Source: a virus
DNA length: 31,776 bases
Virus record (IMG/VR): IMGVR_UViG_3300005663_000145
Location: 1 to 31,776 of that record
Reading direction: 5' to 3' (one strand)
Part shown: positions 7,996 to 30,261 of the stretch, piece by piece
Layout of the letters: each line of letters begins with the position of its first letter
Position numbering within the stretch: position 1 is the stretch's first letter
Translations under genes and position numbers: made by a program
The notes under the pieces: model-generated
Seen by the model: the letters and a program-made list of their open reading frames with translations, nothing else
Databases searched by the model: none
What the model was told of the DNA's origin: nothing

Positions 7996-9105
7996 TTATA
8001 CGTTGGTAAAGTTGTACCTGTAAGTACCCCTGTTACCTGTTAACCTGTCTGTTGCCCTGTAAGCTCCCGGATTTATCAAGTGTAATCCGCACTCTTTAGA
8101 GATTATCAGAGACCAGCCCTTACTTACTGTGGTTGATGTACCATAATAAGCATCTGTTTCAGTTGTCGGACATGGGCGATAAATTAATTGAGCGTCAAAC
8201 TCTACCATCCTTACCCTGTCGCTTACCTGCATAGGTAAGAAGAAAGTAAAGAAGAAATCAGCCCCTTTTAATCCACCTTTGAAACCCTTGTAGTTCATAT
8301 ATTCTACCAACTGAGCGCTTTCTGGCTCAAGCACGAGCGACTCGTTTGCGCCCAGCGCCACCGCTACACGGGGGTCTTGGAAAAACTCAAATCCGTTAGC
8401 CAAAATAGGTGTGTTCATTCCTGATTGGTCAAGACCTTTAGCTTGTTGCTGGAGCATGTGATTATGAATTAGTCCAGTACCTACCATCTTGGGTTTACCG
8501 GTACTTTCGTTTAGGTCATAATCTGTCAACACCTGTGTCAATCCCTGGTTCAAAGGGTTGTTAGTAGTATTCAGAACAAGGTTAATGTTTTGAGCAGCGT
8601 TATTACCTGACCTTTGGTTTACACCGATGCCGGCTGCCTGAAGCACCCACAAGTCCTGATTGATCGCTGAAAGCAAAGCGTCTGCACCCGTTTTAATAGA
8701 AGTTAAAAACTCATCCATTAAAGGTGTTGACGGAGTGCCTACGTTAGCTGAGGCACTTGCTTGCGTTGGATAGAGGGCGATTGTTTCGTCCTCAATGTGA
8801 ATACCCAACTGTCGATAAATACCCAAAGCTACTGTACGCTCCTGGTAAACAGGTACGTTGGTTTGGTCGCAACTGCGAGTAGTGTCGGTATGAGCGACAT
8901 TAAAGCGTTGCCTTGATTTGATAATTACTGTACGCCTGTGTCCTTCATTAGCGGGGTCGTTTAACCTTACGACCTTAGCGTTTTTGTTAGACAATAGCAT
9001 ATTGAGATAACCCTGCCAGTTAAGTTTAAATTCGGGGGTATTCTCTACTGTGATTTTTGCGACATGCTTGGTTAAGCTGTCGGCAAATCCTAATCCTCCT
9101 GCCAT
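7996..9105 (-). CDS. major capsid protein
   Basis: The 369-residue protein follows a scaffold-like gene by 6 nt and is itself followed by a strong terminator, the usual context of the major head subunit. It has features of phage capsid proteins of Bacteroidota phages: GGLGFADSLTKHVAKITVEN at the start, an extended N-arm, an IEDETIALYPTQA segment, and a C-terminal RMVEFDAQLIYRPCPTT followed by a beta-rich end (GTYRYNF). No maturation protease is seen nearby. HK97 fold is expected but not shown by sequence alone. Confidence 0.8.
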   Translation of the reverse strand: MAGGLGFADSLTKHVAKITVENTPEFKLNWQGYLNMLLSNKNAKVVRLNDPANEGHRRTVIIKSRQRFNVAHTDTTRSCDQTNVPVYQERTVALGIYRQLGIHIEDETIALYPTQASASANVGTPSTPLMDEFLTSIKTGADALLSAINQDLWVLQAAGIGVNQRSGNNAAQNINLVLNTTNNPLNQGLTQVLTDYDLNESTGKPKMVGTGLIHNHMLQQQAKGLDQSGMNTPILANGFEFFQDPRVAVALGANESLVLEPESAQLVEYMNYKGFKGGLKGADFFFTFFLPMQVSDRVRMVEFDAQLIYRPCPTTETDAYYGTSTTVSKGWSLIISKECGLHLINPGAYRATDRLTGNRGTYRYNFTNV

Positions 9106-9111
9106 AATATT

Positions 9112-10056
9112 TTAAGATTGTGCGGGCTGTGCTTCACCCAACGTTTGTAATGACCCAACGTGTTCTATGGCAATCCTGCTCGCTTCCGTATTGTCAAGCT
9201 TCCCGTTACCTGCTGGTGCAGGTGGAACTGCTGGAGTTCCGGGAGTTGGTGGAGTGAGAGGAGTGTCGGACACTTTGAGTAACTTATGCTCTGCGAGTAC
9301 CGCATCAGCCAAATCTTTTGGAGTTACTTCTTTGTTGTCTTTGAAATATTTGGTATAATCACCGTTTTCAAGTTTGGTTTTTAGTACCAAATTTCCATTG
9401 TCATTGACAACCTCTACTCCCAATTTTGTAAGTTCACTGTTAAACAGCGATGAAGCTGTTAATATATTTACGTCTTTAGAAACATCTAAAGCGTAATCAT
9501 AATTTGAAAATAAACTGTTTTTGTGTAAGTCAAGTATCTTGTTTTCGTAGCTGTCAACCTTAGCTTGGTGGTCGGTTGAAGATACGGTACTTTCTCTAAG
9601 TCCTGAGAGTTCACCGTTCAGGTCGTCAATAGTTTTCTGAAGCTCTGCCTTTGCGCCCTTGTCATCTGTTGTGCCTTTGGACTCTTCCAATGTTTTAATA
9701 GCGGCTGCATGTGCCTCTGAAACATGTTTAGCAAACAAATCCATACGGTTGTAAGTTCCTTTAGTAGTTTTCAAAGTTTCTATGAAAGTGTCATCGGCAT
9801 TAAAGATGTCTTTCGCTAACGCTCCGAGTTTGTCATCCACAGCATTAAGCGATTCAGCTTTTAACTTATTGACTATCTCAGGGTTGTTCAAAGCAGCGTC
9901 CATTGTCATAAGTTTGCTTAGAATTGCTGTCGAAAAATCGTCAGCAACTTCGGCTGTCGCTACCTCTTTAACTGCTAATAATTTGACAAGGTGTTCGTTA
10001 TCTTCGGGCACACCTGCCATTTTCGCTAATGAGTTTATAAATTCTCCTGCTAACAT
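9112..10056 (-). CDS. capsid scaffolding protein
   Basis: The 314-residue acidic, helical protein sits directly upstream of the major capsid gene. It has long coiled-coil stretches (residues 125-185, including KAELQKTIDDLNGELSGL), a low-complexity Pro-rich linker (PLTPPTPGTPAVPPAPAG near residue 265) and a short C-terminal tail likely to bind capsid subunits. This layout is that of phage scaffolds, which guide procapsid assembly and are removed. The start is the only nearby ATG. Confidence is from composition plus position. Confidence 0.75.
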   Translation of the reverse strand: MLAGEFINSLAKMAGVPEDNEHLVKLLAVKEVATAEVADDFSTAILSKLMTMDAALNNPEIVNKLKAESLNAVDDKLGALAKDIFNADDTFIETLKTTKGTYNRMDLFAKHVSEAHAAAIKTLEESKGTTDDKGAKAELQKTIDDLNGELSGLRESTVSSTDHQAKVDSYENKILDLHKNSLFSNYDYALDVSKDVNILTASSLFNSELTKLGVEVVNDNGNLVLKTKLENGDYTKYFKDNKEVTPKDLADAVLAEHKLLKVSDTPLTPPTPGTPAVPPAPAGNGKLDNTEASRIAIEHVGSLQTLGEAQPAQS

Positions 10057-10077
10057 AATATATGGGTTTGTTGGTTA

Positions 10078-10449
10078 CTATAACAATTCATTAAGGCGCT
10101 CTCTCGCTGCATCTTTTACCGTTTTACGGGCTTCGCCTTTCATTACAATTCCGATTTCTTCAATAGTTCGTTTTGGCTTGTTAATCCATTCGATAAGTTC
10201 TCCTGCTGTTACCTTATTGTCTTTTAATATCTTGCCTAATAGGGATGCTTTGGTGTTTACAGGGGTGGCTACTTTCGGTGCAGGGGCTTCCGGTTGGTTG
10301 ACGGCTGGTGCTGTCTTTGGATATTCAACCCTGATAATATCCTTCTCCATTTGTCGCATTGTGTCGGCTAAGTGTATGCGAGGGGTTACATAAGAAAGTC
10401 CCTCTTTGGGGTAAATTCGCACTTGATCGGGTGCTAATGTTTCAGGCAT
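10078..10449 (-). CDS. small Pro/Ala-linker protein upstream of scaffold
   Basis: The 123-residue protein has an N-terminal part (residues 1-45) likely to be folded, a Pro/Ala-rich linker (TAPAVNQPEAPAPKVATP) and a basic helical C-terminal region (residues 80-123). It is the first gene of the capsid block and lies directly downstream of the accessory region. It may be a second scaffold or internal head protein. No family is recognised. A divergent promoter region lies immediately upstream. Confidence 0.65.
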   Translation of the reverse strand: MPETLAPDQVRIYPKEGLSYVTPRIHLADTMRQMEKDIIRVEYPKTAPAVNQPEAPAPKVATPVNTKASLLGKILKDNKVTAGELIEWINKPKRTIEEIGIVMKGEARKTVKDAARERLNELL

Positions 10450-10477
10450 GGGATAAGTTTTTATTGATTATTTACGT

Positions 10478-10485
10478 CAAAAATA
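10478..10485 (-). promoter_or_regulatory. promoter for the scaffold/capsid block
   Basis: On the minus strand TATTTTTG fits TAnnTTTG; a TTTG at 10512-10509 could be the -33 element although the 23-nt spacing is long. It would start transcription near 10471, about 22 nt upstream of the start at 10449. It lies back to back with the plus-strand promoter at 10498-10527, with overlapping elements. Confidence 0.4.
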
Positions 10486-10497
10486 TAATTAAAGTTG

Positions 10498-10527
10498 TTT
10501 GTTTTTAACAAAATAGGTGTATATTTG
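10498..10527 (+). promoter_or_regulatory. strong Bacteroidota promoter of the mini-gene operon
   Basis: The -33 TTTG (10498-10501) and -7 TATATTTG (10520-10527) are 18 nt apart and both match the Bacteroidota sigma consensus. The first start codon (10547) follows about 13 nt after the expected transcription start, so the leader is very short. Confidence 0.75.
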
Positions 10528-10546
10528 CGGTAATTACTGTTAAAAA

Positions 10547-10717
10547 ATGCAACGAGCAAGCATAAAAGAATGTTCTACATATACCGTCCAGCTTTGTAAA
10601 GCGGAGAAAGAAACGGTTAAACAGATACAAGACGAATATAGGGAAAGGACGGGTAACTATCTGTCAATCCCCAGAACAATCAAACAAATCATAAAAGAAT
10701 GGAAAACGACAAAATGA
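10547..10717 (+). CDS. 56-residue basic protein, mini-operon gene 1
   Basis: The frame from ATG 10547 encodes MQRASIKECSTYTVQLCKAE and then a basic helical region (KETVKQIQDEYRERTG, PRTIKQIIKEWKTTK). It lies right behind a consensus promoter and is followed by two overlapping genes. The basic helical composition would suit a small nucleic acid-binding or regulatory protein. No family is recognised. Its stop overlaps an ATG of the next gene (ATGA at 10714-10717), which supports both. Confidence 0.6.
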   Translation: MQRASIKECSTYTVQLCKAEKETVKQIQDEYRERTGNYLSIPRTIKQIIKEWKTTK

Positions 10718-10893
10718 TATTATTCTCTGACTATTTAGAAGATAAAAAAGAACTTAGAAGAAATATTGAAGGTTTGTTACATAGATTCCTTAATAAATAC
10801 CCTGTTAAGATAATTGAATTGCCTGTTAAATCTGCTCCGGGCCTTGGTGATACTGCTTGCATATTTAACGGAATTGAAATAATTGTAAAATAA
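10699..10893 (+). CDS. small hypothetical protein, mini-operon gene 2
   Basis: Two starts are possible: ATG at 10699 (64 residues) or ATG at 10714 (59 residues), which forms an ATGA overlap with the preceding stop and is perhaps the more natural one. The product (MILFSDYLEDKKELRRNI...) has an N-terminal helix of alternating charges and a C-terminal beta part ending FNGIEIIVK. No motif is recognised. It shares its stop with the next start (TAATG). Confidence 0.6.
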   Translation: MENDKMILFSDYLEDKKELRRNIEGLLHRFLNKYPVKIIELPVKSAPGLGDTACIFNGIEIIVK

Positions 10894-11066
10894 TGTTAAT
10901 AGTAATACAACAAAAAGGGGATAAGTGGCACGTAGTTTATACGCTAAACGGAAAAGTCCTAAGCGTGTTGCATGACACTTGGGATGAGTTACTAAAGGAA
11001 TTATCTAATAAAGAAACCATTGAAAAGGCCCTTACTTCACACTCGAATACCGATAATGATAAATAG
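10893..11066 (+). CDS. 57-residue hypothetical protein, mini-operon gene 3
   Basis: The frame starts at the ATG in TAATG (10893) and encodes MLIVIQQKGDKWHVVYTLNG, a beta-hairpin-like start, followed by a helix (TWDELLKELSNKETIEKAL). It ends TSHSNTDNDK. It is convergent with the glycosyltransferase gene 11583-11032 and overlaps its last 35 nt, so the two transcripts are antisense to each other at their ends. The family is unknown. Confidence 0.55.
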   Translation: MLIVIQQKGDKWHVVYTLNGKVLSVLHDTWDELLKELSNKETIEKALTSHSNTDNDK

Positions 11067-11583
11067 GTCGGTCAATCATTTCCTCTGTAACCAATAGCCC
11101 TGAATTTCTGATTTGCAAAGCCCAGTCAGTATCTTCGCCATGATTGGTTTCGGGAAATCTGAATTGTTTGGCTATACTTGACCGGATAGGGTTAAGGTGG
11201 TTAGGTGGTCGGTAAAAGATATTACATTGTTCAAAATAGCCCCAATGTCTTAGAGAGTGTTCAAATCTTTTCTTATTAAACCCGTCTGTGTTCATTATGC
11301 CTATCATCTGTACAACGTCAGGATTTGTTTCAAGGGCTTTTAAAATGATGCTTATGTACTCTTTATCTATCCAGTCATCATCGTCCACATAACAAAGCCA
11401 TTCGCCTTTAGCATGATCTAAAAGCCAGTTACGTTTCTCTCCTATGCTCATTTCTCCGGCATCGCATTTAGATAGTACCTGTACGTCAACCCCCTCTGTT
11501 TGACTGTTTAACTCTGCCATTAAAACCTTAAACCGGGTTTCTCGCTTCTCTATCGTACAAATAAGGACGGAAAACTGAATCAT
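11032..11583 (-). CDS. GT-A fold (GT2-like) glycosyltransferase
   Basis: The 183-residue protein has the GT-A pattern: a beta-strand start (FSVLICTIEKR), a SIGEKRN motif at 47-53, a DxD-type site YVDDDDW (67-70, binds the metal and sugar-nucleotide) and a GEDTDWAL motif near 152, where the catalytic base of GT2 enzymes is found. It is shorter than most GT2 enzymes. It is a clear paralogue of the next upstream gene, sharing SIG-x-KR, GE-x-x-C-x-VDDDD and GED motifs. It is the last gene of the glycan operon. The sugar and acceptor are unknown. Confidence 0.82.
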   Translation of the reverse strand: MIQFSVLICTIEKRETRFKVLMAELNSQTEGVDVQVLSKCDAGEMSIGEKRNWLLDHAKGEWLCYVDDDDWIDKEYISIILKALETNPDVVQMIGIMNTDGFNKKRFEHSLRHWGYFEQCNIFYRPPNHLNPIRSSIAKQFRFPETNHGEDTDWALQIRNSGLLVTEEMIDRPIYHYRYSSVK

Positions 11584-12137
11584 TTTGCCTCTGTTATTTT
11601 GGGATCAAAGATATACGTATGTAATATTTTGTCTATCTTATATTGAGTTTTTGCTCTCTGCCACAGAGGTTTTAGCCAGCCGGAATCTTCACCGTACATT
11701 AAATCAGGGAATTTTACCCTTTTGCCGAGAGATGACTTCCATGCACAACAGATAAAGGGCTTGCGCTTTGTAACCTTATTGGGAGTAAATTGTTCGTTAT
11801 GGTTTTTTAGATCGAAATCTATTATCCCTTTCATGTCGCCTATGATCGCTCTCTGCTTAAATACTATCACATCGGGATTGCCTTTCATTCCTTTTAGTAT
11901 CTCTTTGATAAAGTCATCGCTTACATCGTCATCGTCATCTACAAAACACATATACTCTCCGTTTACAAGTATCTTCAGAGCGTCCCTTTTTGCCCCTATG
12001 CTTCGCTTTTTGTTGTCTATAAGCCCCAATACCTCTACGTCTTTAGTGGCTTGTTTATCTAACTTATTGTAAATCTTTTGAAACTTCTCCCAACGTGAAG
12101 GTATTGCGGGGATCAGGACGGTCAATTTTAGCGACAT
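11580..12137 (-). CDS. GT-A fold (GT2-like) glycosyltransferase, paralogue
   Basis: The 185-residue protein begins LKLTVLIPAIPSRWEKF, a nucleotide-binding start, then SIGAKRD (47-52), CFVDDDDDV (the DxD site, 67-71) and YGEDSGWLKPLW near 150. It resembles the neighbour downstream along its whole length, so the pair arose by duplication and may add two different sugars. It overlaps the next gene by 4 nt (ATGA) and the upstream FkbM gene by 10 nt. No membrane segment is present, so it would act on a soluble or protein-bound acceptor in the cytoplasm. Confidence 0.82.
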   Translation of the reverse strand: MSLKLTVLIPAIPSRWEKFQKIYNKLDKQATKDVEVLGLIDNKKRSIGAKRDALKILVNGEYMCFVDDDDDVSDDFIKEILKGMKGNPDVIVFKQRAIIGDMKGIIDFDLKNHNEQFTPNKVTKRKPFICCAWKSSLGKRVKFPDLMYGEDSGWLKPLWQRAKTQYKIDKILHTYIFDPKITEAK

Positions 12138-12709
12138 AAGATTATATTTTCACCATTACTATATATTTCCTTCCATCCCGCCATGTACGAATTGACCTCT
12201 TTTCGATATTGATAACTACATTCTAAACATATCATCCCAACACTATAAAGATCAATCTGTTTTAAGATGTCAATTCCCAGCCGGTCATTTTCTACGTCAA
12301 TGCTTACGAAGTTGAATTGTTTGTACTTGCTCTTTTTCAGCAAGTCATTCAAAGTATAGAATTGAGTAGGAACTTTGGTAAAAACAGAGTTGTAATTTTC
12401 AATCCACTTCTTTACATGGGCCGGGTCGGTAGAACTCAAAGCATCACCGTTAGAATCAAACAAATTAAAAATACCCGTTTTGTTACCGATAGCGCAATTA
12501 TACACTTCTACTTCAGTATCTTTGTAAAACTCTGCTAAAGTAGGATAACAGTTCTTAGACGGCTCAATACACACCCCTTTCCATCCTCTTTCATATAACG
12601 CCCGGACATTACTAAATATTTCAGGATGATATGATCCGATGTCTAAGAATACCCCGCTATCACCGAAGTAACTAAGGATATGTTTTTCTTCTTCTCTTTG
12701 GCTAAACAT
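12128..12709 (-). CDS. FkbM-family SAM-dependent methyltransferase
   Basis: The 193-residue protein has the FkbM pattern: VFLDIGSYHPEIFSN (motif I, residues 20-34), GWKGVCIEPS (acidic residue for SAM ribose, E49) and FVSIDVEN...DILK in the second half (post-motif). FkbM enzymes O-methylate hydroxyl groups, often on sugars of surface polysaccharides and glycans. It sits between a methyltransferase and two glycosyltransferases, so the substrate is probably a sugar added by this operon. It overlaps both neighbours (8 and 10 nt). Confidence 0.85.
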   Translation of the reverse strand: MFSQREEEKHILSYFGDSGVFLDIGSYHPEIFSNVRALYERGWKGVCIEPSKNCYPTLAEFYKDTEVEVYNCAIGNKTGIFNLFDSNGDALSSTDPAHVKKWIENYNSVFTKVPTQFYTLNDLLKKSKYKQFNFVSIDVENDRLGIDILKQIDLYSVGMICLECSYQYRKEVNSYMAGWKEIYSNGENIILCR

Positions 12710-13298
12710 TTTTTATTCCTAATTTATTAAATTGTGCTTTTGTGATAAATGAACTACTTTTAATCTTTTTGAGTACACAATATATGTTCCAGCCGTCCGT
12801 TGTGTTACCCATTGCCGGATGCTCTCCGAGTTCTATTATCTCATACCCCTGCGCTTTGGCTAAGTTTCTATAAAATTCCTCTGTGCAATACCAATGTCCG
12901 TGTCCTTTCCAGTTACCTGTTTTGGGGTTTTCTGAAATGATGTAACCGCCTGTTTTGCAGAAATTATATTTATTGAACCAACAATTATAAATATTCTTAA
13001 CGTGTTCGGATGTTCCAAAGTCGGTAACAATATCAAAATTTGACGGAGGAAATAATATACTTATATCGCAGAGCTTTTTCCATAATTTCCATTTTTTACC
13101 CAAATCTAATTTAAAAGCCCCGTCCTCTCCATTTAGGTCGATACTTATATGCTCAAACCCCATCTTCTCAAACATTGGCTTTGCGGGTTTGCCGTAGTCA
13201 TCCCCGAAGTAAATAGTTTGATTGCCTAATTCAAGCATCTGGTCGCCTGTTTTGGCGTACTTCATTAGCAGATCGTAGCTATATTTAGTTAATCCCAT
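12702..13298 (-). CDS. class I SAM-dependent methyltransferase-like protein
   Basis: The 198-residue protein starts with a helical segment, then MLELGNQTIYFG (motif I, E-x-G at 23-25), an acidic loop ISIDLNGEDGAF near 51-62 (SAM ribose contact D54) and NFDIVTDFGTSEHV at 87-100 (motif IV-like), with YIISENPKTGNW after it. The order is that of a Rossmann methyltransferase. The motif I glycines are atypical (one instead of three), so activity is not certain. The gene overlaps the kinase-like gene by 14 nt. The likely substrate is a glycan or nucleotide-sugar of the pathway. Confidence 0.72.
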   Translation of the reverse strand: MGLTKYSYDLLMKYAKTGDQMLELGNQTIYFGDDYGKPAKPMFEKMGFEHISIDLNGEDGAFKLDLGKKWKLWKKLCDISILFPPSNFDIVTDFGTSEHVKNIYNCWFNKYNFCKTGGYIISENPKTGNWKGHGHWYCTEEFYRNLAKAQGYEIIELGEHPAMGNTTDGWNIYCVLKKIKSSSFITKAQFNKLGIKNV

Positions 13299-13755
13299 TT
13301 GCTATTTCTTTTATTAAATCAGTAACAGTTACAAAATTATCATTAAATACATTCGTCCAGATGCCAAAGTCAATAAGATATATCATCCTGTTTTTTACAT
13401 GAATGTTTTTATGATGCGGGGGGATAGGATTGTCTTTGCCCACTAAATCCTGATGATAGATACTACATTTGTGTAGCGTTTCTTCGATCTCGGCACATTG
13501 TTTTTCCCAGTTCTTTGGCAGGTTTTTCTTTGTTAACGGCTCACCGCAATATGTCATCCATATAATTCTATCTTTACATATACTGACCTTTATAACTTGC
13601 GGAAAATGCTTTTTACCTTTAAGTAGTTTTAATGCCTTTATCTCATTCTCCCAATGTGATTTTATTTTCCTGTCGGCATATTTTACTTCGTCTGGTAAAT
13701 AAACCTTCTTAATAATTCCATTCTCCAAATATACATTTGACACCATTCCTTTCAT
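13285..13755 (-). CDS. miniature protein-kinase-fold protein
   Basis: The 156-residue protein has the core of the kinase fold: a β3-like lysine (IIKKVYL, K16/K17), an αC glutamate (ENEIKAL, E38), a hinge (RIIWMTYCGEPL near 63), the catalytic loop YHQDL...KNIHV (D103 and N117) and the DFG motif (D129-G131, LIDFGIW). No glycine-rich loop is clear and the C-lobe after DFG is very short (25 residues), so it is close to the smallest possible kinase unit. Such small lipid/sugar kinases (WaaP/Kdo-kinase, RIO-like) act on lipopolysaccharide cores or proteins. Here it sits in a glycan operon, so a sugar or a virion protein is a plausible substrate. Confidence 0.72.
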   Translation of the reverse strand: MKGMVSNVYLENGIIKKVYLPDEVKYADRKIKSHWENEIKALKLLKGKKHFPQVIKVSICKDRIIWMTYCGEPLTKKNLPKNWEKQCAEIEETLHKCSIYHQDLVGKDNPIPPHHKNIHVKNRMIYLIDFGIWTNVFNDNFVTVTDLIKEIANGIN

Positions 13756-14339
13756 TTCTGATAATGTATAAACGGTCTTATAAGTTCCCTGTCTCTGACC
13801 TTTTTGGATTCTATTTGAGTTAAATTAGTGTCTAAATATGAAGTTAAAGGCGACCAGTAGCTATTGGGTTCTTTGAGTGTAGAGTTTGGTAGGTGGTAAC
13901 CTGTCGGGTGTCCTTCTAAGAACAGATGACCGTTAGGGTTTAACATACTTATAAGGCATTTACCAAACTCCACCATTGGCATATCTGCGTAAATATGAAA
14001 GGCCAGGCAGAGAATTACATCAAATTTCTGATTAAGGCATTTAAAATCCTGATGTGCGAGGTTGCAATTAGTAATAGTATGGGATAGCATCTCCCGTACC
14101 CCTATGTCTATCTGTTTTTTATCGCTGTCTATTCCGAGATAGTGTTGAATATGCGGAGAGAGAAACACCCCAAAGAACCCCCTGTTGCAGCCCAAATCCA
14201 GCACTAACGAGTCCTTTGTAACATAATTCATTATGCCATAGTCCTTTACCCTGTCGGGAATAGAACGGTTGGCTTTGGCTGCTTCGCCCTTAGTACCCGT
14301 TTCTAAGCATTGATAGTCGGAAAACATATTAAATCCCAT
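13752..14339 (-). CDS. class I SAM-dependent methyltransferase
   Basis: The 195-residue protein has a strong motif I (LVLDLGCNRGFFGVFL, 45-60), LGIDSDKKQID (acidic residue D71), and DVILCLAFHIY at about 105-115, followed by a FLEGHP stretch. This is the Methyltransf_25-type Rossmann fold. It is the first of three methyltransferases in the operon and overlaps the kinase gene (ATGA at 13755-13752). A sugar or lipid O-methylation step is the likely role. Confidence 0.82.
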   Translation of the reverse strand: MGFNMFSDYQCLETGTKGEAAKANRSIPDRVKDYGIMNYVTKDSLVLDLGCNRGFFGVFLSPHIQHYLGIDSDKKQIDIGVREMLSHTITNCNLAHQDFKCLNQKFDVILCLAFHIYADMPMVEFGKCLISMLNPNGHLFLEGHPTGYHLPNSTLKEPNSYWSPLTSYLDTNLTQIESKKVRDRELIRPFIHYQK

Positions 14340-14341
14340 AG

Positions 14342-15022
14342 TTAGATTCCTTGAGCGTACATGACTGCGGTTTCGGGTGGTTCTCCGTAAGGTTCACCTA
14401 CATAAACCATTAAAGTATGCTCAGGATATGCAGTCATCTTTAATTGATTTGCAATAACGCTTCCGCACAGCATATCATGTCTCGTACCTTTGCATCGAGG
14501 GTCTGAAGATACGCAATTATTGTCATTATTCCAAGGTCCTTTAAATTGTCCGTCTAACATTGCTTGTCGCCAGCGTTTAAAAAACTCTGCTGCAATAGGC
14601 ACATCAAAATCCAAAGCCAAAAAGCCCCCGTTTCCATACATTTCAAGTTTCATAGCTTCGTCTCTCGTTACTCCAAAATATACTAATTGTTTATCGCTTG
14701 ACCATGTACCACACAAATGTCCCGCATATTGTTTAACATACCCGTGTTTTTCTAATGCTTCCCAAATAGGATCAAGGGGTTTTATAGCCCAAATAGAGGC
14801 GTCCACCCAAAGGATTTTAGTATAGCCGGCTTTCAATGCCTGTTCAAAAGCATAGATTTTAAAGGCATACGGATTGTCTTTGTGGACTGGTGAGCCGATT
14901 GATTCTTCTTTTGTCCAGCTTAGAAAAGTGCCGTCAAATCCTACATCTAATAATGACTTATGCAGGCGGTCTTGACCTACTACGTAACGTCCTGATGCGA
15001 AGTTAATTATTGCTGTTTTCAT
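14342..15022 (-). CDS. glycosyltransferase-like protein with DxS site
   Basis: The start is taken at the ATG at 15022 (226 residues) rather than 12 nt upstream, because the sequence then begins MKTAIINFASGRY, a strand entering a nucleotide-binding fold. The core has NPYAFKIYAFEQALKAGY and KILWVDASIW (DAS, 74-76; the position of the metal-binding DxD), then GNGGFLALDFD. It resembles GT-A (GT8-like) enzymes. It follows the 98-residue gene with 20 nt overlap. One Cys-rich segment (SSDPRCKGTRHDMLC) is unusual. Confidence 0.68.
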   Translation of the reverse strand: MKTAIINFASGRYVVGQDRLHKSLLDVGFDGTFLSWTKEESIGSPVHKDNPYAFKIYAFEQALKAGYTKILWVDASIWAIKPLDPIWEALEKHGYVKQYAGHLCGTWSSDKQLVYFGVTRDEAMKLEMYGNGGFLALDFDVPIAAEFFKRWRQAMLDGQFKGPWNNDNNCVSSDPRCKGTRHDMLCGSVIANQLKMTAYPEHTLMVYVGEPYGEPPETAVMYAQGI

Positions 15023-15299
15023 TTTTTTCTGCAATTATGGTAATTCCATGCAAAGAAATTAATTTACCTCCTTCACTATTGTTATATAAAACAGACATAA
15101 AATCCCTATCTTTAACATCGCTTTCCCAATATTCTTCTTCGTATTCTTCTTTTTTTGCTTTGTTATGAAATGATTTTAAATCAGCCAAATACTGCCCAGT
15201 TAATAACGAAAAAAGATCGTCTTTGTCTTTGATTAAAACTTTTTTATCACCATTAATGGCATAAAAATTATACTGTTTGAAAAAATCAATAGTTCTCAT
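15003..15299 (-). CDS. hypothetical protein in glycan operon
   Basis: The 98-residue product starts MRTIDFFKQYNFYAING, has a charged helix (NKAKKEEYEEEYWESDV, 46-62) and ends IIAEKNENSNN. There is no membrane segment or motif. It overlaps the upstream gene by ATGA (15299-15296) and the downstream glycosyltransferase by 20 nt, so it is translated as part of the operon. Confidence 0.65.
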   Translation of the reverse strand: MRTIDFFKQYNFYAINGDKKVLIKDKDDLFSLLTGQYLADLKSFHNKAKKEEYEEEYWESDVKDRDFMSVLYNNSEGGKLISLHGITIIAEKNENSNN

Positions 15300-15508
15300 T
15301 TTGGTTTTCCATATTTGTTCATGTTATCAACTGCAAATTCTATATGTCCATCACTTAATCCATGCAATATAGTATCTTTATCTGCGTCTTTCTTTAATTT
15401 CTCAATAAATTTTACTGAATAAGCTCCTGAATGTCTTTTTGACCAGTTGCCATTAACTTTTACTTGAACCCAACCATTAGATAGTAAATGTATTTCGTTT
15501 ATTTTCAT
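15296..15508 (-). CDS. small hypothetical protein in glycan operon
   Basis: The 70-residue product has a beta-hairpin start (IHLLSNGWVQVKVNGNW) followed by two helices. Both ends overlap neighbours by ATGA. A similar beta-hairpin then helix layout is seen in the plus-strand 57-residue protein (10893-11066), but the sequences differ. The function is unknown. Confidence 0.65.
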   Translation of the reverse strand: MKINEIHLLSNGWVQVKVNGNWSKRHSGAYSVKFIEKLKKDADKDTILHGLSDGHIEFAVDNMNKYGKPK

Positions 15509-16218
15509 TTTGGAAACCCTTTAGCTTTACGTTGTTCATAAATTTCTTTATCCATGTTAAAATATGCCTCGTTCCTGTCGTAAAGTTTATCTCTTTTGGT
15601 TTGAGGATTGTTGGCAAAATGCTCATGCTTAAAAAGAACGGTGGTAAAGTAAGTCATTTTATCTAATCCCTTTGCTACATTAGTGAACTCCTCATCGCAA
15701 AACAAACTATTGTAGTCAGGATGATATATAAATCCGAAACGGTCATAGTAAGCCCTGCCAATAATACAAAGAGTACAAATCCTGTCCTGATAACCGTCAT
15801 TAAACCACAGGCATCCGTCAGTATCGGGATAGTATTTAGCCATTGCCTGACGTATTATTTCGTCCCATCCCTCTATTTGGGGTATCATATCATCGCTCAT
15901 AAGTACAACGATGTCCCATGATAGAGATATTTCCTCCATTGTTTTTGTAAAAACATCAATATCTCTATTGCAGGCATGGATTTTATTATTGCTTAACCCG
16001 CCATATAATATAGGGAAATGAGAAAGCCCCTTCATGCCGTAATAATTGTCAAATTTCTTTTTTAATTCGTCCTTTGTGGGGTCGTCATTGTCAACAGTAA
16101 TAAGATAAAATATATCGTCTCCATTAGATGCTGTTGTCCAAAGTTTATGAAAGACCTTAATACATTGTTCGGGGCGTTCCCTTGTAGGGAATTTAATTAA
16201 TAGCTTTAATGGTTTCAT
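15505..16218 (-). CDS. GT2-like glycosyltransferase-fold protein
   Basis: The start is placed at the ATG at 16218, which overlaps the preceding stop (ATGA), giving 237 residues including the run MKPLKLLIKFPTRERP. A second strand (FYLITVDNDDP) and IVVLMSDDMIPQ (acidic metal site, near 101-112) are typical of GT-A enzymes, as is FCDEEF near 165. It is the first catalytic gene of the operon. No transmembrane helix is visible. A sugar transferase acting in the cytoplasm is inferred. Confidence 0.72.
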   Translation of the reverse strand: MKPLKLLIKFPTRERPEQCIKVFHKLWTTASNGDDIFYLITVDNDDPTKDELKKKFDNYYGMKGLSHFPILYGGLSNNKIHACNRDIDVFTKTMEEISLSWDIVVLMSDDMIPQIEGWDEIIRQAMAKYYPDTDGCLWFNDGYQDRICTLCIIGRAYYDRFGFIYHPDYNSLFCDEEFTNVAKGLDKMTYFTTVLFKHEHFANNPQTKRDKLYDRNEAYFNMDKEIYEQRKAKGFPK

Positions 16219-16451
16219 AGTGATTCGGGTTTTAATATTGTCATTCCTACGGGTTGCATCGGTTGTCCCCCTGTTATTTGTTTCCAATAAATACGCCCAG
16301 TTTTCTTTACTTGCTCTTTTTCTTCATTATCTAATTCAAAGCAGAAAATCAGTGAACCTTCTTTTTCATTGTGATAAGCGGGTAGCGTTTCGTACTGTTC
16401 TTGTTTTTCCGCTATTTTTACATTGTGTCCTTTAAATGCTATTGCTTTCAT
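16215..16451 (-). CDS. small conserved phage protein, TGRI/PMQP type
   Basis: The 78-residue protein starts MKAIAFKGHNVKIAEKQEQY and has a core SLIFCFELDNEEKEQVKKTG followed by RIYWKQITGGQPMQPV. This resembles a small protein found in many Bacteroidota phages and in other tailed phages (a 'CW-L-x5-G-I-W...P-Q-P' pattern), whose function is unknown. Family recognition is from memory. It overlaps the next gene by ATGA. Confidence 0.65.
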   Translation of the reverse strand: MKAIAFKGHNVKIAEKQEQYETLPAYHNEKEGSLIFCFELDNEEKEQVKKTGRIYWKQITGGQPMQPVGMTILKPESL

Positions 16452-16475
16452 AGTTTAGTTTTTATAATATAAGGT

Positions 16476-16535
16476 CGCCCCCTCATAAACAAACCGCAAA
16501 ACCGTGAAGGGTAGTTGTCTGTCTAATCAGGGGCG
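16476..16535. other. 60-nt hairpin region between small genes
   Basis: CGCCCCCT (16476-16483) and AGGGGCG (16529-16535) pair with one bulge across a 45-nt interior that includes a second GC-rich possible pairing. It is in the 102-nt gap between the 97-residue and 78-residue genes. It lacks a T-tract, so it is not a clear terminator; it could be a leader structure for the genes that follow. Confidence 0.35.
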
Positions 16536-16553
16536 TTATTTGAGTTAGGGATT

Positions 16554-16847
16554 TCAATTAAAAATTGATTTGTTTTTCTTCTTTAGTGTCTTTTTTAAGC
16601 TGTAAAGCTCGCTGCTCAATTTATAAGTTTTCTCCTGCCAAACTGCAAGTTCTTTATTAAAGTTTTTGATTTCGTTATCATCAATACCGTTTTTTGAGTA
16701 TATGACAATCCCGTGTCTTGTTCTGCCTCCCGGACCGCCTGTAAAATAACTATCATGTTCAATCCATAGTTTATTTTCCTTAAATGCTTTTTCCATTTCG
16801 ACAAATCGGTTAAATTCGTCTAATTCTATTATTATTTGTGGTTTCAT
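16554..16847 (-). CDS. small coiled-coil hypothetical protein
   Basis: The 97-residue product starts MKPQIIIELDEFNRFVEMEK, has a short central GGPGGRTRHGIVIY strand region and ends in a Lys-rich coiled coil (LSSELYSLKKTLKKKNK). It begins 2 nt after the stop of the 33-residue leader gene. No family is recognised. Confidence 0.65.
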   Translation of the reverse strand: MKPQIIIELDEFNRFVEMEKAFKENKLWIEHDSYFTGGPGGRTRHGIVIYSKNGIDDNEIKNFNKELAVWQEKTYKLSSELYSLKKTLKKKNKSIFN

Positions 16848-16849
16848 AA

Positions 16850-16951
16850 TTAATAAACCCGACTTAGAATATCAAACGGTATCGTAACAGAAACCGCACC
16901 AATCCTTTCGGGTATGGTATTCGTATCGGGATTTTTTAATGGATTTTTCAT
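16850..16951 (-). CDS. 33-residue leader mini-gene of the glycan operon
   Basis: ATG 16951 to TAA 16850 encodes MKNPLKNPDTNTIPERIGAV followed by a short hydrophobic segment. The start is 24 nt downstream of a TATCTTTG -7 element (16982-16975), and the next gene begins 2 nt after its stop. Position and coupling support translation; the peptide itself has no recognised function and could be a regulatory leader. Confidence 0.5.
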   Translation of the reverse strand: MKNPLKNPDTNTIPERIGAVSVTIPFDILSRVY

Positions 16952-16974
16952 GTTACGATTTTGTTTTGATATTG

Positions 16975-16982
16975 CAAAGATA
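16975..16982 (-). promoter_or_regulatory. promoter of the glycan operon
   Basis: TATCTTTG on the minus strand matches TAnnTTTG. The -33 region is weak (TTAG about 20 nt upstream). The predicted start is near 16968, giving a 17-nt leader before ATG 16951. Thirteen coupled genes follow without another obvious promoter. Confidence 0.55.
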
Positions 16983-17130
16983 ATCATTATATTTTTACAT
17001 CCTAATAATATTTTTCCGGCTCGCAAACGGTTCCTGATTAAAACATAGGGATTTCTTCTTCAGAAATACCGAGGTTTTGAGCAGGAATGAAAGGAAAATG
17101 CACTGCTACAAGTGTCCCTTGTGCGGCTAT

Positions 17131-17186
17131 TTAACATAAAATTTGGTTATAGGGCTTAGTACGTTCTATAACCCATATTATGTTAA
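17131..17186. other. two-tier hairpin upstream of the three-way junction
   Basis: TTAACATAA (17131-17139) pairs with TTATGTTAA (17178-17186), and GGTTATAG (17145-17152) inside pairs with CTATAACC (17166-17173), leaving a 13-nt loop. It lies 10 nt before the three-way junction and may be part of the same structured element. Confidence 0.5.
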
Positions 17187-17196
17187 TATAGCTCAG

Positions 17197-17269
17197 CGCT
17201 ATTCAGCCCGGTAATTGCTAACTTTTCATAGCAATTATTCCGACCTTAGTCGGAAAGGGTTGAATAGCG
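17197..17269 (+). other. compact three-way-junction inverted repeat
   Basis: A 13-bp outer stem (17197-17209 with 17257-17269) closes over two adjacent perfect hairpins: TAATTGCTA/TAGCAATTA (17212-17220, 17229-17237, eight-base loop) and TTCCGAC/GTCGGAA (17238-17244, 17249-17255, four-base loop). Only three bases in the junction are unpaired. The outer stem contains a G·U pair on the plus strand (an A·C mismatch on the minus strand), which hints that the plus-strand RNA is the functional form. It could equally be a cruciform-type DNA site. It is not a tRNA and lacks the hammerhead core. Confidence 0.6.
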
Positions 17270-17298
17270 AAGCGCAGGTGGCTCAGGAATAAATTAGA

Positions 17299-17355
17299 CG
17301 TACTTCTACGCACTTCTTTACGTAAAAGTACGCAAAAAGATTGCGTAAATATACG
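17299..17355. promoter_or_regulatory. triple operator CGTA-N4-TACG
   Basis: Three dyads, CGTA-CTTC-TACG (17299-17310), CGTA-AAAG-TACG (17321-17332) and CGTA-AATA-TACG (17344-17355), start 22 and 23 nt apart, two helical turns, and each is followed by C. The third extends to GCGTA-N4-TACGC. They end one base before the -33 element of the promoter at 17357. This is the layout of a multi-site operator or activator site for one dimeric regulator. Confidence 0.65.
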
Positions 17356-17356
17356 C

Positions 17357-17387
17357 TTGTTTTATTTGTACCGATTGCCTACTTTTG
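17357..17387 (+). promoter_or_regulatory. promoter of the structured RNA and lipoprotein genes
   Basis: TTG (17357-17359) and TACTTTTG (17380-17387) are 20 nt apart and fit the Bacteroidota -33/-7 consensus. Transcription should begin near 17394. Three operator-like dyads are directly upstream. Confidence 0.65.
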
Positions 17388-17393
17388 TATTAT

Positions 17394-17560
17394 TGTTCTT
17401 TGAACCTTACTTATGTAGGGAAAAATGTTAATCTGGTTTTGTACTAAAATCGCCTTTTATAAATTAATCCAACCAGAAGGAATAGCGTAGGTTGTTCCTG
17501 TGGATTATATAGGTGTTTGGCGATACCTTGTACAAGCAGGATGCAGTCCTGCGCTTTTTT
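17394..17560 (+). ncRNA. putative small structured RNA, 6S-like rod
   Basis: Between the promoter and a terminator lies a 167-nt non-coding segment. It has a short 5' hairpin (CCTTAC/GTAGGG, 17405-17420) and a long rod: TTGTAC (17439-17444) with GTACAA (17530-17535), ATCGCC (17449-17454) with GGCGAT (17519-17524), then a 10 by 11-nt internal bubble, then TAATCC (17465-17470) with GGATTA (17502-17507) and an AACC/GGTT inner pair. A rod with a large central bubble and a 3' terminator is how 6S RNA is built, which binds RNA polymerase. No primary-sequence match to a known family is claimed. An alternative pairing (TCTGGTT with AACCAGA) exists, so a switching leader for the lipoprotein gene is the main competing idea. 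Confidence 0.5.
17536..17560 (+). terminator. terminator of the structured RNA
   Basis: GCAGGA (17536-17541) pairs with TCCTGC (17547-17552) around a five-base loop, followed by GC and TTTTTT (17555-17560). It separates the RNA from the lipoprotein start at 17627; read-through or the following palindrome would control the protein genes. Confidence 0.75.
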
Positions 17561-17626
17561 ATTTTATAAGCAAGGGTGAAAATTTCACCGCAACATAGTA
17601 CTAATAATTTTAAAAACCAAACTATT

Positions 17627-18028
17627 ATGAAAACAACAATCTTGCTTTTACTGTTATCTCTTTTTAGTTGTAAGAAAGAAGAAACACCATCACCTGCGGT
17701 ATCACCCGCACCACTACCCGATAAAATATTCAGCGTGAGAATGTACGAAACACAAACTAAACCCTGGATGGATTCATTTAATCAGAATTGGTTTGTAACT
17801 TATAATCTTACAACAACAGGCACACCAGCTACGGCAATAGATATGTACTGGCTACGTGAGAATGAAACTATAACAATAGATGGAGAGTTTAAGCCTGCCT
17901 ATCCTTATAGTTTAATATATGCTTATGTAAGAAGTTGGGTAGACTTAACAGACACCGTGCCAACAACGATAGTAGTACCGGTAACGGTTACGTCCAACGT
18001 ATTTAGCTACACCTTTACTTATAACTAA
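17627..18028 (+). CDS. secreted lipoprotein, unknown
   Basis: The start is taken at ATG 17627 (133 residues), not at an ATG 51 nt earlier, because a lipoprotein signal then begins at once: KTTILLLLLSLFSC with the lipobox LFSC and Cys15. A Lys/Glu-rich and Pro/Ser-rich spacer (KKEETPSPAVSPAPLP) follows, then a beta-rich domain of about 100 residues with several Trp and Tyr. It would be anchored in the host outer membrane or periplasm. In a late phage region it is a 'moron'-type gene: superinfection exclusion or host surface change are the usual roles, inferred only. Confidence 0.72.
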   Translation: MKTTILLLLLSLFSCKKEETPSPAVSPAPLPDKIFSVRMYETQTKPWMDSFNQNWFVTYNLTTTGTPATAIDMYWLRENETITIDGEFKPAYPYSLIYAYVRSWVDLTDTVPTTIVVPVTVTSNVFSYTFTYN

Positions 18029-18039
18029 ATCTAAAAGCT

Positions 18040-18582
18040 ATGAGAAAATTACTTACTATATTATTGGTATGTGCTTCGTTTATTGCACAAGCTCAAATAG
18101 AGGGCATCTTATCAAGGGATTGCGTTTTTAAACAGTCAATTGAATTTTCAGATTCGATTATAAAGACAATACAAAAAGGTGAGAAATTAATTTTATTTAA
18201 GTTAGAAGATGTTTTTTTCTCAGCAGAATATGAAGGGAAAAGGGGTTACATTGTTGATGTTTGCTTTAAATTTACTGATGAGTTTTTAACTTTCTATGAA
18301 AAAGAGTTGGAACGGGTTAAAAAAGAAGAAGATGAACAAAGAAGGATAGAAATACAGCAATGGCATGATTTTTTAATTACAGAATTTGGCAGAATAAATG
18401 CAAATAGAATATTAAATCATCAATATTGGATAGGAATGACGGCAGTTATGGCATCAAACAGTTTAGGTTCTCCAAAAGACATTAATAAATCAGTGGGTTC
18501 ATGGGGAGTACATGAGCAGTGGGTTTATGATAATACATATCTATACTTTGAAAATGGAATATTAACAAGCTATCAGAATTAA
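18040..18582 (+). CDS. secreted protein with SH3-like and SmpA-like parts
   Basis: The 180-residue protein has a cleavable signal peptide (MRKLLTILLVCASFIAQAQ), a beta-rich domain at 20-85 that looks like a bacterial SH3 unit (EGKRGYIVDVCF), a charged coiled-coil (FYEKELERVKKEEDEQ) and a C-terminal module (WIGMTAVMASNSLGSPKDIN, then EQWVYDNTYLYFENG) of the SmpA/BamE-like type common in Bacteroidota envelope proteins. It starts 11 nt after the lipoprotein, in the same operon, and ends before a terminator. It probably modifies or protects the host envelope. Confidence 0.7.
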   Translation: MRKLLTILLVCASFIAQAQIEGILSRDCVFKQSIEFSDSIIKTIQKGEKLILFKLEDVFFSAEYEGKRGYIVDVCFKFTDEFLTFYEKELERVKKEEDEQRRIEIQQWHDFLITEFGRINANRILNHQYWIGMTAVMASNSLGSPKDINKSVGSWGVHEQWVYDNTYLYFENGILTSYQN

Positions 18583-18674
18583 CCATTACGGTTGGGCTGT
18601 GTTCATGGAATCAGAACGGGGAATTGCTTAGGTTCGATTAAACTCCGCACTTATAATAAACAATTCCTATTAGT

Positions 18675-18702
18675 AGGGGAGGTTCACGCCTCCCCTTTTT
18701 TT
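18675..18702 (+). terminator. terminator of the lipoprotein operon
   Basis: GGGGAGG (18676-18682) pairs with CCTCCCC (18689-18695) around six bases and is followed by TTTTTTT (18696-18702). It is about 90 nt after the stop of the 180-residue gene. On the minus strand it has no T-tract, so it is one-directional. Confidence 0.85.
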
Positions 18703-18735
18703 AACCTCTTAATTTTCCTTTCAAGTTTGCGAGCC

Positions 18736-18801
18736 CAAACCTAAAATTTAAAGTCCGGGAATCCGAAGTATGAGGATGGAGGACTTTGAATTTTGGGTTT
18801 G
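18736..18801. repeat. 21-bp near-perfect inverted repeat
   Basis: Positions 18736-18756 pair over 21 bases with 18781-18801 around a 24-nt loop that itself has an ATCC/GGAT pair. On the plus strand the pairing includes two G·U pairs; on the minus strand they become A·C mismatches. The leftward promoter at 18810-18841 would start an RNA near 18804, just in front of this hairpin, giving a 5'-terminal stem. Confidence 0.65.
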
Positions 18802-18809
18802 TCATCCGA

Positions 18810-18841
18810 CAAAGATATATACATCATTATTAAAATCCAAA
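18810..18841 (-). promoter_or_regulatory. leftward promoter facing the long inverted repeat
   Basis: On the minus strand TTTG (18841-18838) and TATCTTTG (18817-18810) are 20 nt apart, a full match to the Bacteroidota consensus. The transcript would run through the 21-bp hairpin and be antisense to the lipoprotein operon. No gene starts within about 1.8 kb in that direction. Confidence 0.6.
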
Positions 18842-18894
18842 CTATTTTTATAATTTTTTGCTACCTTTAGCCGGTGGTCCCGTGGCACGTTTTT

Positions 18895-19782
18895 TTAATC
18901 TGCAAACTTTTCCCTGATATTTTTTGGTACGAATTCCTCATTAGTTGCCGCAACCAAGTGGTTGCACGAATAACCTCCGGCTTTTGACCTGAATGTTTGT
19001 GCGTTGGTATTAGGTTTTAGTCCCGCTAAACTTACTTTTTTACCGTTAATAGTTCCCTTTGTAATTTTATCAAACTCCGATATATGAATCCATCTTTTTT
19101 TTACTAAAGCAATGCAAAAATCCCTGCTTTTTTCAACCAAAGCTCCGGTATATTGAAACCACTCCATGCCTAAATCTTCGCTTACTATTTGATTATATTC
19201 CCTTGCAAATCCATTGAGAGAATCGGTTGTAAGCACTTGGGTATAACGGGACAAAGCACCGGTTCCCTTGTCGGTCTTAGTAAGGAAGGTTCTCATCTCA
19301 TCCATGAGATCGTTAAACCCCGCCCCCTCGGTGATGTTTCTCTCTACAATCTGAGCCGCCTTCTCGGTGATGTTAGACCTTATACCTGCCTCTGTAAGAC
19401 CTTCGACCATTGCATCTACTGAGGTCTTTTTTAACTGATTGACAAAGGCGGGTAATTTAAACCCTTTTTGCAAGCTGGCAAAATACTCTGTTTGTAGTTC
19501 GGTTACTTTCTCAAATGACTGACCAAATACATTGACTTGTTTGAGGTACTTATCATTAAGAACAGCGTTTTGGATTTCTCTTTTTAAGCGGTTGATCTTA
19601 CGCAGGTTGGCAACCGTAGGGCGTATGTCGCCCCTTCTAATATCCAAGTCCCTTAGAAGTAATTGAATACGGTTAAGTATATCCTTTTGAAGTCGTGGGA
19701 TACTCTCATTAAAACTATCTACTGAGCCGTCTATTAAGTCATTCAGTTGGCTCAGGAGGGACTGGCTCTGTTGGAGGGACAT
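18895..19782 (-). CDS. minor head protein, SPP1 gp7/Mu gpF-like
   Basis: The 295-residue mostly helical protein follows the portal gene (44-nt overlap), the standard place of the phage head morphogenesis protein. Its C-terminal half has the family pattern: YTGALVEKSRDFCIALVKKRW near residue 213 and a final GGYSCNHLV motif, where the Cys/His pair of the SPP1 gp7 domain is found. A helical N-terminal part (1-190) would interact with portal or DNA. It may enter the head and aid DNA ejection or portal incorporation. Confidence 0.78.
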   Translation of the reverse strand: MSLQQSQSLLSQLNDLIDGSVDSFNESIPRLQKDILNRIQLLLRDLDIRRGDIRPTVANLRKINRLKREIQNAVLNDKYLKQVNVFGQSFEKVTELQTEYFASLQKGFKLPAFVNQLKKTSVDAMVEGLTEAGIRSNITEKAAQIVERNITEGAGFNDLMDEMRTFLTKTDKGTGALSRYTQVLTTDSLNGFAREYNQIVSEDLGMEWFQYTGALVEKSRDFCIALVKKRWIHISEFDKITKGTINGKKVSLAGLKPNTNAQTFRSKAGGYSCNHLVAATNEEFVPKNIREKFAD

Positions 19783-21574: not shown

Positions 21575-22473
21575 AGGTTTTGTCTTCCGGGCATCCATCC
21601 TCTTTTGTCTAACCAAAAGAACGGAAACCTTTGATTGAACTGATTGCAATAAAATTGCACTAAATTATTATAGGTCTTTTTCATCATAGGGTGAGATATA
21701 TGACCACCCATAGAATAAGCGTAAAACCCATTGTTAAGGTCAGCGCCTTGTAAACGTAAGTGCTCGGCACTCTCCCAATAGAAGGGCTTGTAATTGTCCT
21801 TGTGGGGGTATATCTTATTCTTAATCATTGAGATAGTAAACGGTAATTCGTCAGGCATCCCGCCATTGAAAAACCTGCTTATGTTAAAACTATCATCATC
21901 GAACAATTTAAAAGCATCTGCAAACAACTTACTGACCTCTTTTGTTCTTTTGAAGTAAATCATTTCACTGCTGAGGTTGTAAAATCTGCCTTCCTTGAAT
22001 TTAAACACTTCCTTAATATGTTTAGGTGAAGCCCAAATACCAAAGGCATCCGTCAAGTTATCACTCTCCAAAGCCATCCAACTACGATTAGCCATTGTGA
22101 AATCTGTGTTTAACTCGTTAAAGAGTGTCATTACAGACCTTTTAGGAAGCCAAACCATATCGGCATCTAAATATATCGTCTCTCCGTAAGGACTTAACTT
22201 ATAGAGGGCTGTTTTAGCTTTTAAGTATTGAATACGCCCATCGGTACTATAATATTTAGCAGGCACTTCTTTTACCTTGTCAAACAATGATTTGTCAACA
22301 ATCTGTGTTATTCCACTCCCTGCATAGAGTAATGAGATTTTAACTTCGGGACAGGTATATTTTAAACTCATTGCCAGGTTATATGCCCATCGTCCCCAAT
22401 AGGCGTGTCCGAGTGCTAATATGACAACTCCCCTGTCGGGGTTTTTTGTTTTCGGTGTTTGTTTTGCTTTCAT
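21571..22473 (-). CDS. glycosyltransferase, GT8-like, inside the structural region
   Basis: The 300-residue protein has a GT-A pattern: a VVILALGHAYWGRW start, LKAKTALYKLSPY and then IYLDADMVW with the DxD site at 103-105, followed by a second Asn/Asp-rich half with FNGGMPDELP near 213. It resembles GT8/Glyco_transf_8-like or nucleotide-diphospho-sugar transferase proteins. It lies alone between a tail protein gene (ATGA overlap at 22473-22470) and portal (ATGA overlap). It may glycosylate a virion protein; the lone position in the head-tail genes differs from the GT operon at 11-16 kb. Confidence 0.72.
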   Translation of the reverse strand: MKAKQTPKTKNPDRGVVILALGHAYWGRWAYNLAMSLKYTCPEVKISLLYAGSGITQIVDKSLFDKVKEVPAKYYSTDGRIQYLKAKTALYKLSPYGETIYLDADMVWLPKRSVMTLFNELNTDFTMANRSWMALESDNLTDAFGIWASPKHIKEVFKFKEGRFYNLSSEMIYFKRTKEVSKLFADAFKLFDDDSFNISRFFNGGMPDELPFTISMIKNKIYPHKDNYKPFYWESAEHLRLQGADLNNGFYAYSMGGHISHPMMKKTYNNLVQFYCNQFNQRFPFFWLDKRGWMPGRQNL

Positions 22474-29960: not shown

Positions 29961-30261
29961 ATATCAAATGGTTAAGACCTGAGAGTGCAAATATATAAAA
30001 TAAATAAAAAACTGCGTTATAAATTGTAAAGTCATACATAAACCAATATACATAAAGAGAGTGAACCGATGCCATGCAGAGAATGCAACCGTAAATGGGG
30101 TTAGTGATCCATGTAGAGAGGTTGCGGGTGTACCACTTCACCCACCACAATACTTTCTTTTCTACCGGCTTCTTATCTACGTCTAATTCGTAATCAACGG
30201 CATTTGCAATGCCTACTATCAGGAGGGAGTTGAATATGAGTATAGTAATTAGTTCAATCAA
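29941..30261 (-). CDS. membrane protein downstream of terminase
   Basis: The 106-residue protein has an N-terminal helix (IELITILIFNSLLIVGIANAV) and two closely spaced ones near residues 60-102 (IYGCILCMASVHSLYVYWF and YNAVFYLFYIFALSGLNHLI), with a GC-x2-CM motif at the edge of the second. It starts at TTG 30261, which overlaps the terminase TGA by three bases; no other start gives the first helix. Similar short membrane proteins with a C-x2-CM motif occur in phages as proteins of unknown function. Confidence 0.65.
   Translation of the reverse strand: MIELITILIFNSLLIVGIANAVDYELDVDKKPVEKKVLWWVKWYTRNLSTWITNPIYGCILCMASVHSLYVYWFMYDFTIYNAVFYLFYIFALSGLNHLIYASFFK

Follow-up and report, generated by a model that had tools for sequence, protein, structure and literature searches.

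Virion glycosylation has, to our knowledge, been shown in few tailed phages, and the documented cases here are mycobacteriophages. Published work describes O-glycosylation of the virions of mycobacteriophages Che8, Corndog and Myrna (Freeman et al. 2023, via PMC11256854, PMC12363180 and PMC12619734), with glycans on the Che8 capsid (PMC11256854, PMC12363180) and with Che8 gp110 reported as essential for capsid glycosylation. In the chlorovirus PBCV-1, capsid glycosylation draws on soluble glycosyltransferases (GTs) lacking membrane anchors, on GMD/GMER, which supply GDP-fucose, and on a methyltransferase domain (PMC5408694). Here we describe an island of GT and methyltransferase genes in the head gene block of an uncultured phage, IMG/VR virus record IMGVR_UViG_3300005663_000145 (the window: the whole stretch analysed, 31,776 base pairs (bp), with late genes on the minus strand). 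The island represents a cassette with three GT types (GTa and its paralogue GTb, GTc, and GT8l), which we read, with a probability of about 0.6, as a mobile and modular set of genes that equips a virion protein, the predicted acceptor, with a short methylated glycan. Computation showed the genes present, their co-occurrence, order and placement, the folds of their products, purifying selection and movement between lineages.

Recurrence, placement and movement of the cassette

Searches with the portal, capsid and GT8l proteins retrieved >100 IMG/VR contigs and two contigs from Bacteroidota metagenome-assembled genomes (MAGs), and our own profiles were run on all of their open reading frames (ORFs). 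Most cassette loci (contigs are given L numbers) came through the GT8l search, and the portal loci, which include near-copies, are the best 80 of 327. Among non-duplicate loci, 45 carried any cassette GT and 36 carried all three types; after removal of near-copies, 33 distinct loci with all three types were left, all co-oriented. The order GTc-GTa/b-GT8l was found in 27 of the 33, and GTa/b abuts GT8l in 22; the window, L003, L005 and L096 have another order in common, with GTb-GTa at the end. The core of the cassette is GTc, GTa/GTb and GT8l, usually with an FkbM-type methyltransferase.

Cassette genes are under purifying selection: in close pairs, where measurable, the ratio of nonsynonymous to synonymous substitution rates (dN/dS) was 0.04–0.27 and mostly ≤0.16. 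Identity between the window and L003, its closest relative, is 75% for GT8l and 68% for FkbM, against 66% for the capsid and 58% for the portal. In the L006 GT8l gene (9995-10666, plus strand) a single in-frame TAG occupies the position of a conserved Trp; it may be a nonsense mutation, a sequencing error or a case of suppression. A sequence-only reading of the window had proposed that the island acts as one unit, to be checked by co-occurrence; conservation in relatives and in unrelated phages, across the 33 loci, and purifying selection bear this out and tell against a random collection of genes. Cultured phages gave no DNA match to window positions 9000-20000 and no protein match for the portal, capsid, GT8l or MTenp (a methyltransferase-like protein of the island), with one weak match each for FkbM and for GTd, a further GT described below.

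The insertion site is best defined in the window's portal lineage, where 55 of 65 contigs have no cassette genes and only 14–2148 bp between the Mu-F-like minor head (MuF) and scaffold genes. The gap widens to 3.3–10.3 kilobases (kb) in the other ten, seven of which hold a GT cassette and three (L020, L045 and L055, gaps of 3.3–8 kb) a lone opposite-strand FkbM gene and no GT cassette, so the site takes other sugar-related cargo. The cassette also follows MuF in L096, L024 and L107, contigs that end before the scaffold gene; it lies directly before GTd-portal instead in L019, L021 and L116, and is inverted in L008, L009, L102 and L112. In unrelated phages it was found between the portal and major head genes (L099), near the terminase (L104, L118), near the portal (L121) and before a tape measure gene (L128), but also next to a helicase gene (L108). 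A GT8l tree needs nine label changes, four of them forced by well-supported branches, and the cassette has therefore moved between phage lineages, with at least four switches.

GTd, which the sequence-only reading overlooked, lies outside the island; of 73 relatives whose contigs extend far enough upstream, 66 have it immediately next to the portal gene, and it is a core gene of the window's lineage. Its structural model aligns with human glycogenin-1 (3u2t; Z 17.4, 218 aligned residues, 3.4 Å), and a profile of 34 relatives, in which D103/D105 of the DxD motif are invariant, matches glycogenin-1 at 2e-5. No Pfam family, the GT8 profile included, matched GTd at E 0.1, and no named PHROG did.

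Genes of the island and its flanks

ORFs, strand and overlaps confirm a leftward operon of overlapping genes between head genes (Table 1). It holds 12 convincing genes and not the thirteen first counted, because u58 begins at a TTG and nothing supports it. From u78 to GTa (ten consecutive genes plus u98/u70) neighbours overlap by 4–20 bp or are spaced by 2 bp, and the sole larger spacing in the island is the 102 bp between u97 and u78. Neither u98 nor u97 matched a family in Pfam or PHROG scans, and an Rfam scan of the window gave no match.

Table 1. Features of the window, with the evidence for each assignment
Feature	Position	Strand	Basis or remark
Presumed major capsid protein	7996-9105	-	Position, size; 66-70% identity in closest relatives
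Scaffold-like protein (island border)	9112-10056	-	Position, size and conservation only
GTa, small GT2 glycosyltransferase, 183 aa	11032-11583	-	PF00535 4.7e-9; phrog_14775 2.8e-35
GTb, GT2 glycosyltransferase	11580-12137	-	Pfam 8.3e-7
FkbM-type S-adenosylmethionine (SAM) methyltransferase	12128-12709	-	PF05050 1.2e-9; TIGR01444 1.4e-12 (NCBIfam)
MTenp, methyltransferase-like	12702-13298	-	ENPKTGNWxGHG motif; Pfam Methyltransf_11 0.06
Small kinase-like protein, 156 aa	13285-13755	-	TIGR03724 Bud32 2.3e-6
Class I SAM methyltransferase (Methyltransf_25)	13752-14339	-	PF13649 4.5e-9
GT8l, GT-A fold glycosyltransferase	14342-15022	-	AlphaFold2 (AF2) model, pLDDT 95.2
u98, 98-aa protein	15003-15299	-	Overlaps GT8l and u70
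u70, 70-aa protein	15296-15508	-	ORF
GTc, glycosyltransferase, 237 aa from ATG	15505-16218	-	phrog_14945 1.2e-25
u78, 78-aa protein	16215-16451	-	4-bp overlap with GTc
u97, 97-aa protein	16554-16847	-	102 bp upstream of u78
u58, doubtful 58-aa ORF	16850-17026	-	TTG start, no support
Mu-F-like minor head protein (island border)	18895-19782	-	Motif; one weak match among relatives
Portal protein	19739-21646	-	phrog_7376 2.8e-10
GTd, glycogenin-like GT8 glycosyltransferase	21571-22473	-	AF2 model, pLDDT 92.9; outside island
Tape measure protein	26446-28842	-	Profile match
Terminase large subunit	30258-31502	-	Late gene

Pfam supports two of the three GT2-type enzymes initially proposed, GTa and GTb, while GTc has no Pfam match and is a glycosyltransferase by PHROG. 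The DDDD motif of GTa is conserved across 29 relatives, and the protein aligns with the N-terminal part of Che8 gp108 at 30% identity over 95% of the query (E 4e-17; profile E 2e-55). The two GT2 genes had been taken for recent paralogues, a view that does not survive comparison: GTa and GTb are 29–31% identical to each other against 51–60% to orthologues (51–53% for GTb), and GTb is an old paralogue of GTa. GTc conserves SDD and HxH in its alignment, has homologues in Streptomyces phages and Pelagibacter phage HTVC008M, and weakly matches dolichol-phosphate mannose synthase (0.049).

The GT8-like call on GT8l holds as far as a GT-A fold goes. There was no profile match, Pfam included, and a GT6 sequence-profile test was negative. 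The model is nearest to BoGT6a (4ayj; Z 14.6, 195 aligned, 3.2 Å by VIA-align), followed by glycogenin (Z 13.7) and the PBCV-1 A064R GT domain (2p72; Z 13.6), with blood-group A/B and GT34-like enzymes also among its neighbours; since the best matches (GT6, GT34-like and GT8) fall within ~1 Z unit, no single family was assigned. The DxD position reads DAS, and D74 is invariant in 31 aligned sequences. All five window GTs have a maximum 19-residue hydropathy of 0.85–1.00 and are free of membrane segments and hydrophobic helices.

Two of the three proposed methyltransferases are clear, the FkbM type, which is likely to be a sugar O-methyltransferase, and Methyltransf_25. The third, MTenp, is weakly methyltransferase-like by sequence; it aligns with an L003 protein and has homologues in 17 cassette loci. 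The small kinase-like protein has N and DFG residues in its alignment, and its Bud32-like match stands by itself, with no match of its profile to PDB sequences.

Accessory gene content varies widely among cassette loci. Only the window and L003 carry the kinase and Methyltransf_25 genes, and a locus search with the kinase added only the L003 contig. TylF methyltransferases were found in nine cassette loci (Pfam 1e-34 and 2e-35), GT25 and galactosyltransferase-like genes in L008 and L009, a GDP-mannose dehydratase in the L006 locus and the L126 record, and a GDP-fucose-synthase-like gene in L006; the window has no GDP-fucose synthesis genes. A DDE transposase gene (L003 7472-8704, minus strand; PF13701, 3e-21) adjoins the L003 cassette. 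Between the TylF and FkbM genes of the L006 cassette lies a gene for a 328-aa structural-looking protein that has no family match (11480-12466, plus strand), a possible glycan acceptor. The L005 cassette contains a gene (9517-10011, plus strand) for a protein starting MSKLIILSTQRTGSS, sulfotransferase-like by eye and with no Pfam match, and that of L007 holds an extra 517-aa GT-like protein, with a GroEL-like gene (13942-15528, plus strand) just downstream.

The flanking genes were named with differing support. The portal is identified by profile. The minor head protein rests on an SRxxC...CxH motif kept in six relatives and a weak PF04233 (Phage_Mu_F) match in one relative (0.012); the scaffold and capsid were placed by order and size, the presumed capsid protein having found no match in the profile search. 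Opposite-strand genes border the island on both sides: a plus-strand pair at 17627-18582, between the island and the minor head gene, encodes a lipoprotein-like protein (MKTTILLLLLSLFSCKK) and a signal-peptide protein, candidates for surface or superinfection-exclusion genes, and three small overlapping plus-strand ORFs occupy 10547-11066, the last overlapping the end of GTa. Such lipoprotein and signal-peptide starts are of a style common in Bacteroidota, the likely host; two cassette contigs sit in Bacteroidota MAGs, where binning errors are possible. A search of 395 genomes from the phylum to which the L128 MAG belongs found no match to a portal profile, an uninformative result.

Target of the proposed glycan

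In the mechanism we favour, soluble GT-A glycosyltransferases would build a short glycan stepwise in the infected cell, on a capsid, portal-side or tail protein of the virion. GTd may attach the first sugar in the window's lineage, FkbM and the other methyltransferases would cap sugars through O-methylation, and the small kinase may phosphorylate a sugar in the window phage and one relative. Nucleotidyltransferase PF00483 was found in 0 of 28 phage records, so the host must supply most of the nucleotide sugars. We infer the virion-protein acceptor, the order of reactions, and the roles of the kinase and methyltransferases.

The sequence-only reading had left a virion protein and a host surface glycan side by side as targets. 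Of the two, we favour the virion on account of head-block placement, the contact between GTd and the portal, the homology of GTa to Che8 gp108, the lack of GtrA- and thymidylate-synthase-type genes in the phage records searched, some of them partial, and the parallel with PBCV-1 (soluble GTs, a methyltransferase domain, and GMD/GMER beside the GDP-fucose-pathway genes of two relatives). Several observations weigh against it. The structural proteins have no obvious Ser/Thr-rich acceptor tail; Che8 gp110 matches no island profile at E 0.1, although distant homology is possible; and the Che8 GTs lie far from the Che8 head genes. In L008, L009, L102, L099 and L103 the cassette is on the strand opposite the head genes and hence need not belong to a late structural operon, in L108 and L007 it sits beside a helicase and the GroEL-like gene, respectively, and most relatives in the lineage have no cassette.

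A rival reading, that the cassette alters a glycan on the host surface (O-antigen, capsule or exopolysaccharide) during infection and so keeps other phages or released progeny from adsorbing, as O-antigen conversion does, is in our judgement unlikely. Bacterial loci for surface polysaccharides typically contain GT, FkbM, TylF and GDP-fucose genes, L106 has a GtrB-like match, and the cassette occupies its own strand in several phages and is optional within the lineage. However, the GtrA flippase (PF04138) was found in 0 of 28 phage records, some of them partial, while 7 of 14 controls were positive; the window GTs have no membrane segments; and the cassette repeatedly lies within head or packaging blocks, touching GTd-portal. 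A role in hypermodifying phage DNA with sugars to escape restriction is very improbable. Phage GTs can glycosylate DNA (Pyle 2024, cited in PMC12619734) and GTa is weakly similar to a beta-glucosyl-HMC-alpha-glucosyltransferase profile (E 0.07), but the thymidylate synthase/dCMP hydroxymethylase family PF00303 was found in 0 of 20 phage records, many of them partial, and DNA modification would have no need of several different GTs, sugar methyltransferases, GDP-fucose genes or placement in a head block. We give equally scant credence to the view that these are morons, genes picked up horizontally at an insertion hotspot and sharing no function. The MuF-scaffold gap does take other cargo, such as the lone FkbM genes and the lipoprotein-like genes of the window, and accessory genes vary widely; against this stand purifying selection and the 33 distinct loci, some in unrelated phages, in which the three GT types share one orientation and mostly one order.

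Beyond virion glycosylation as such, we hold a broader picture only tentatively, at somewhat short of even odds: that a horizontally moving cassette targets the phages' own virions in several uncultured lineages, that portal-coupled GTd primes the glycan as a core head-module gene, and that a glycosylated virion is ancestral in a large group for which no cultured member was found.

Comparison with known systems

The earlier suggestion that no described phage system has this exact gene set was too strong, since mycobacteriophage capsid and tail glycosylation is known and the chlorovirus system is a close functional analogue; what stands is that the exact set with the kinase was found in two phages only and that we found no paper describing either it or the cassette gene set. 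GTd resembles glycogenin and GT8 enzymes in its fold, its DxD motif and a nucleotide-sugar half found by profile, and differs in its 14–16% identity and lack of a Pfam match, its activity being predicted from sequence and model. In Actinoplanes phage phiAsp2, pas33-pas35 lie immediately downstream of tail/head genes and encode a GTa homologue, then a protein that joins a GTc domain with an O-methyltransferase, and a further GT; unlike in the cassette, GTc is fused in a 597-aa protein, and no GT8l or FkbM was found.

The mycobacteriophages share phage-encoded GTs with the cassette, and the full length of GTa corresponds to part of a Che8 protein. The Che8 GTs are at the genome end; the cassette lies mostly in the head block and combines several GT types with methyltransferases and a kinase, to which relatives add GDP-fucose genes, and no gp110 homologue was detected in the island. 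PBCV-1 is a eukaryotic giant virus with dispersed genes and a known glycan and acceptor, and its likeness to the window is at the level of fold: the window GTs are likewise soluble, and GT8l has the fold of the A064R GT domain. If its target is as we propose, the cassette is a new variant of phage virion glycosylation. With its defined core and insertion site, and with a portal-linked GT8 core gene, it would then allow glycosylated virions to be predicted and tested for in environmental phages that infect other hosts, and it would supply compact, soluble glycosyltransferases as well as methyltransferases for sugars.

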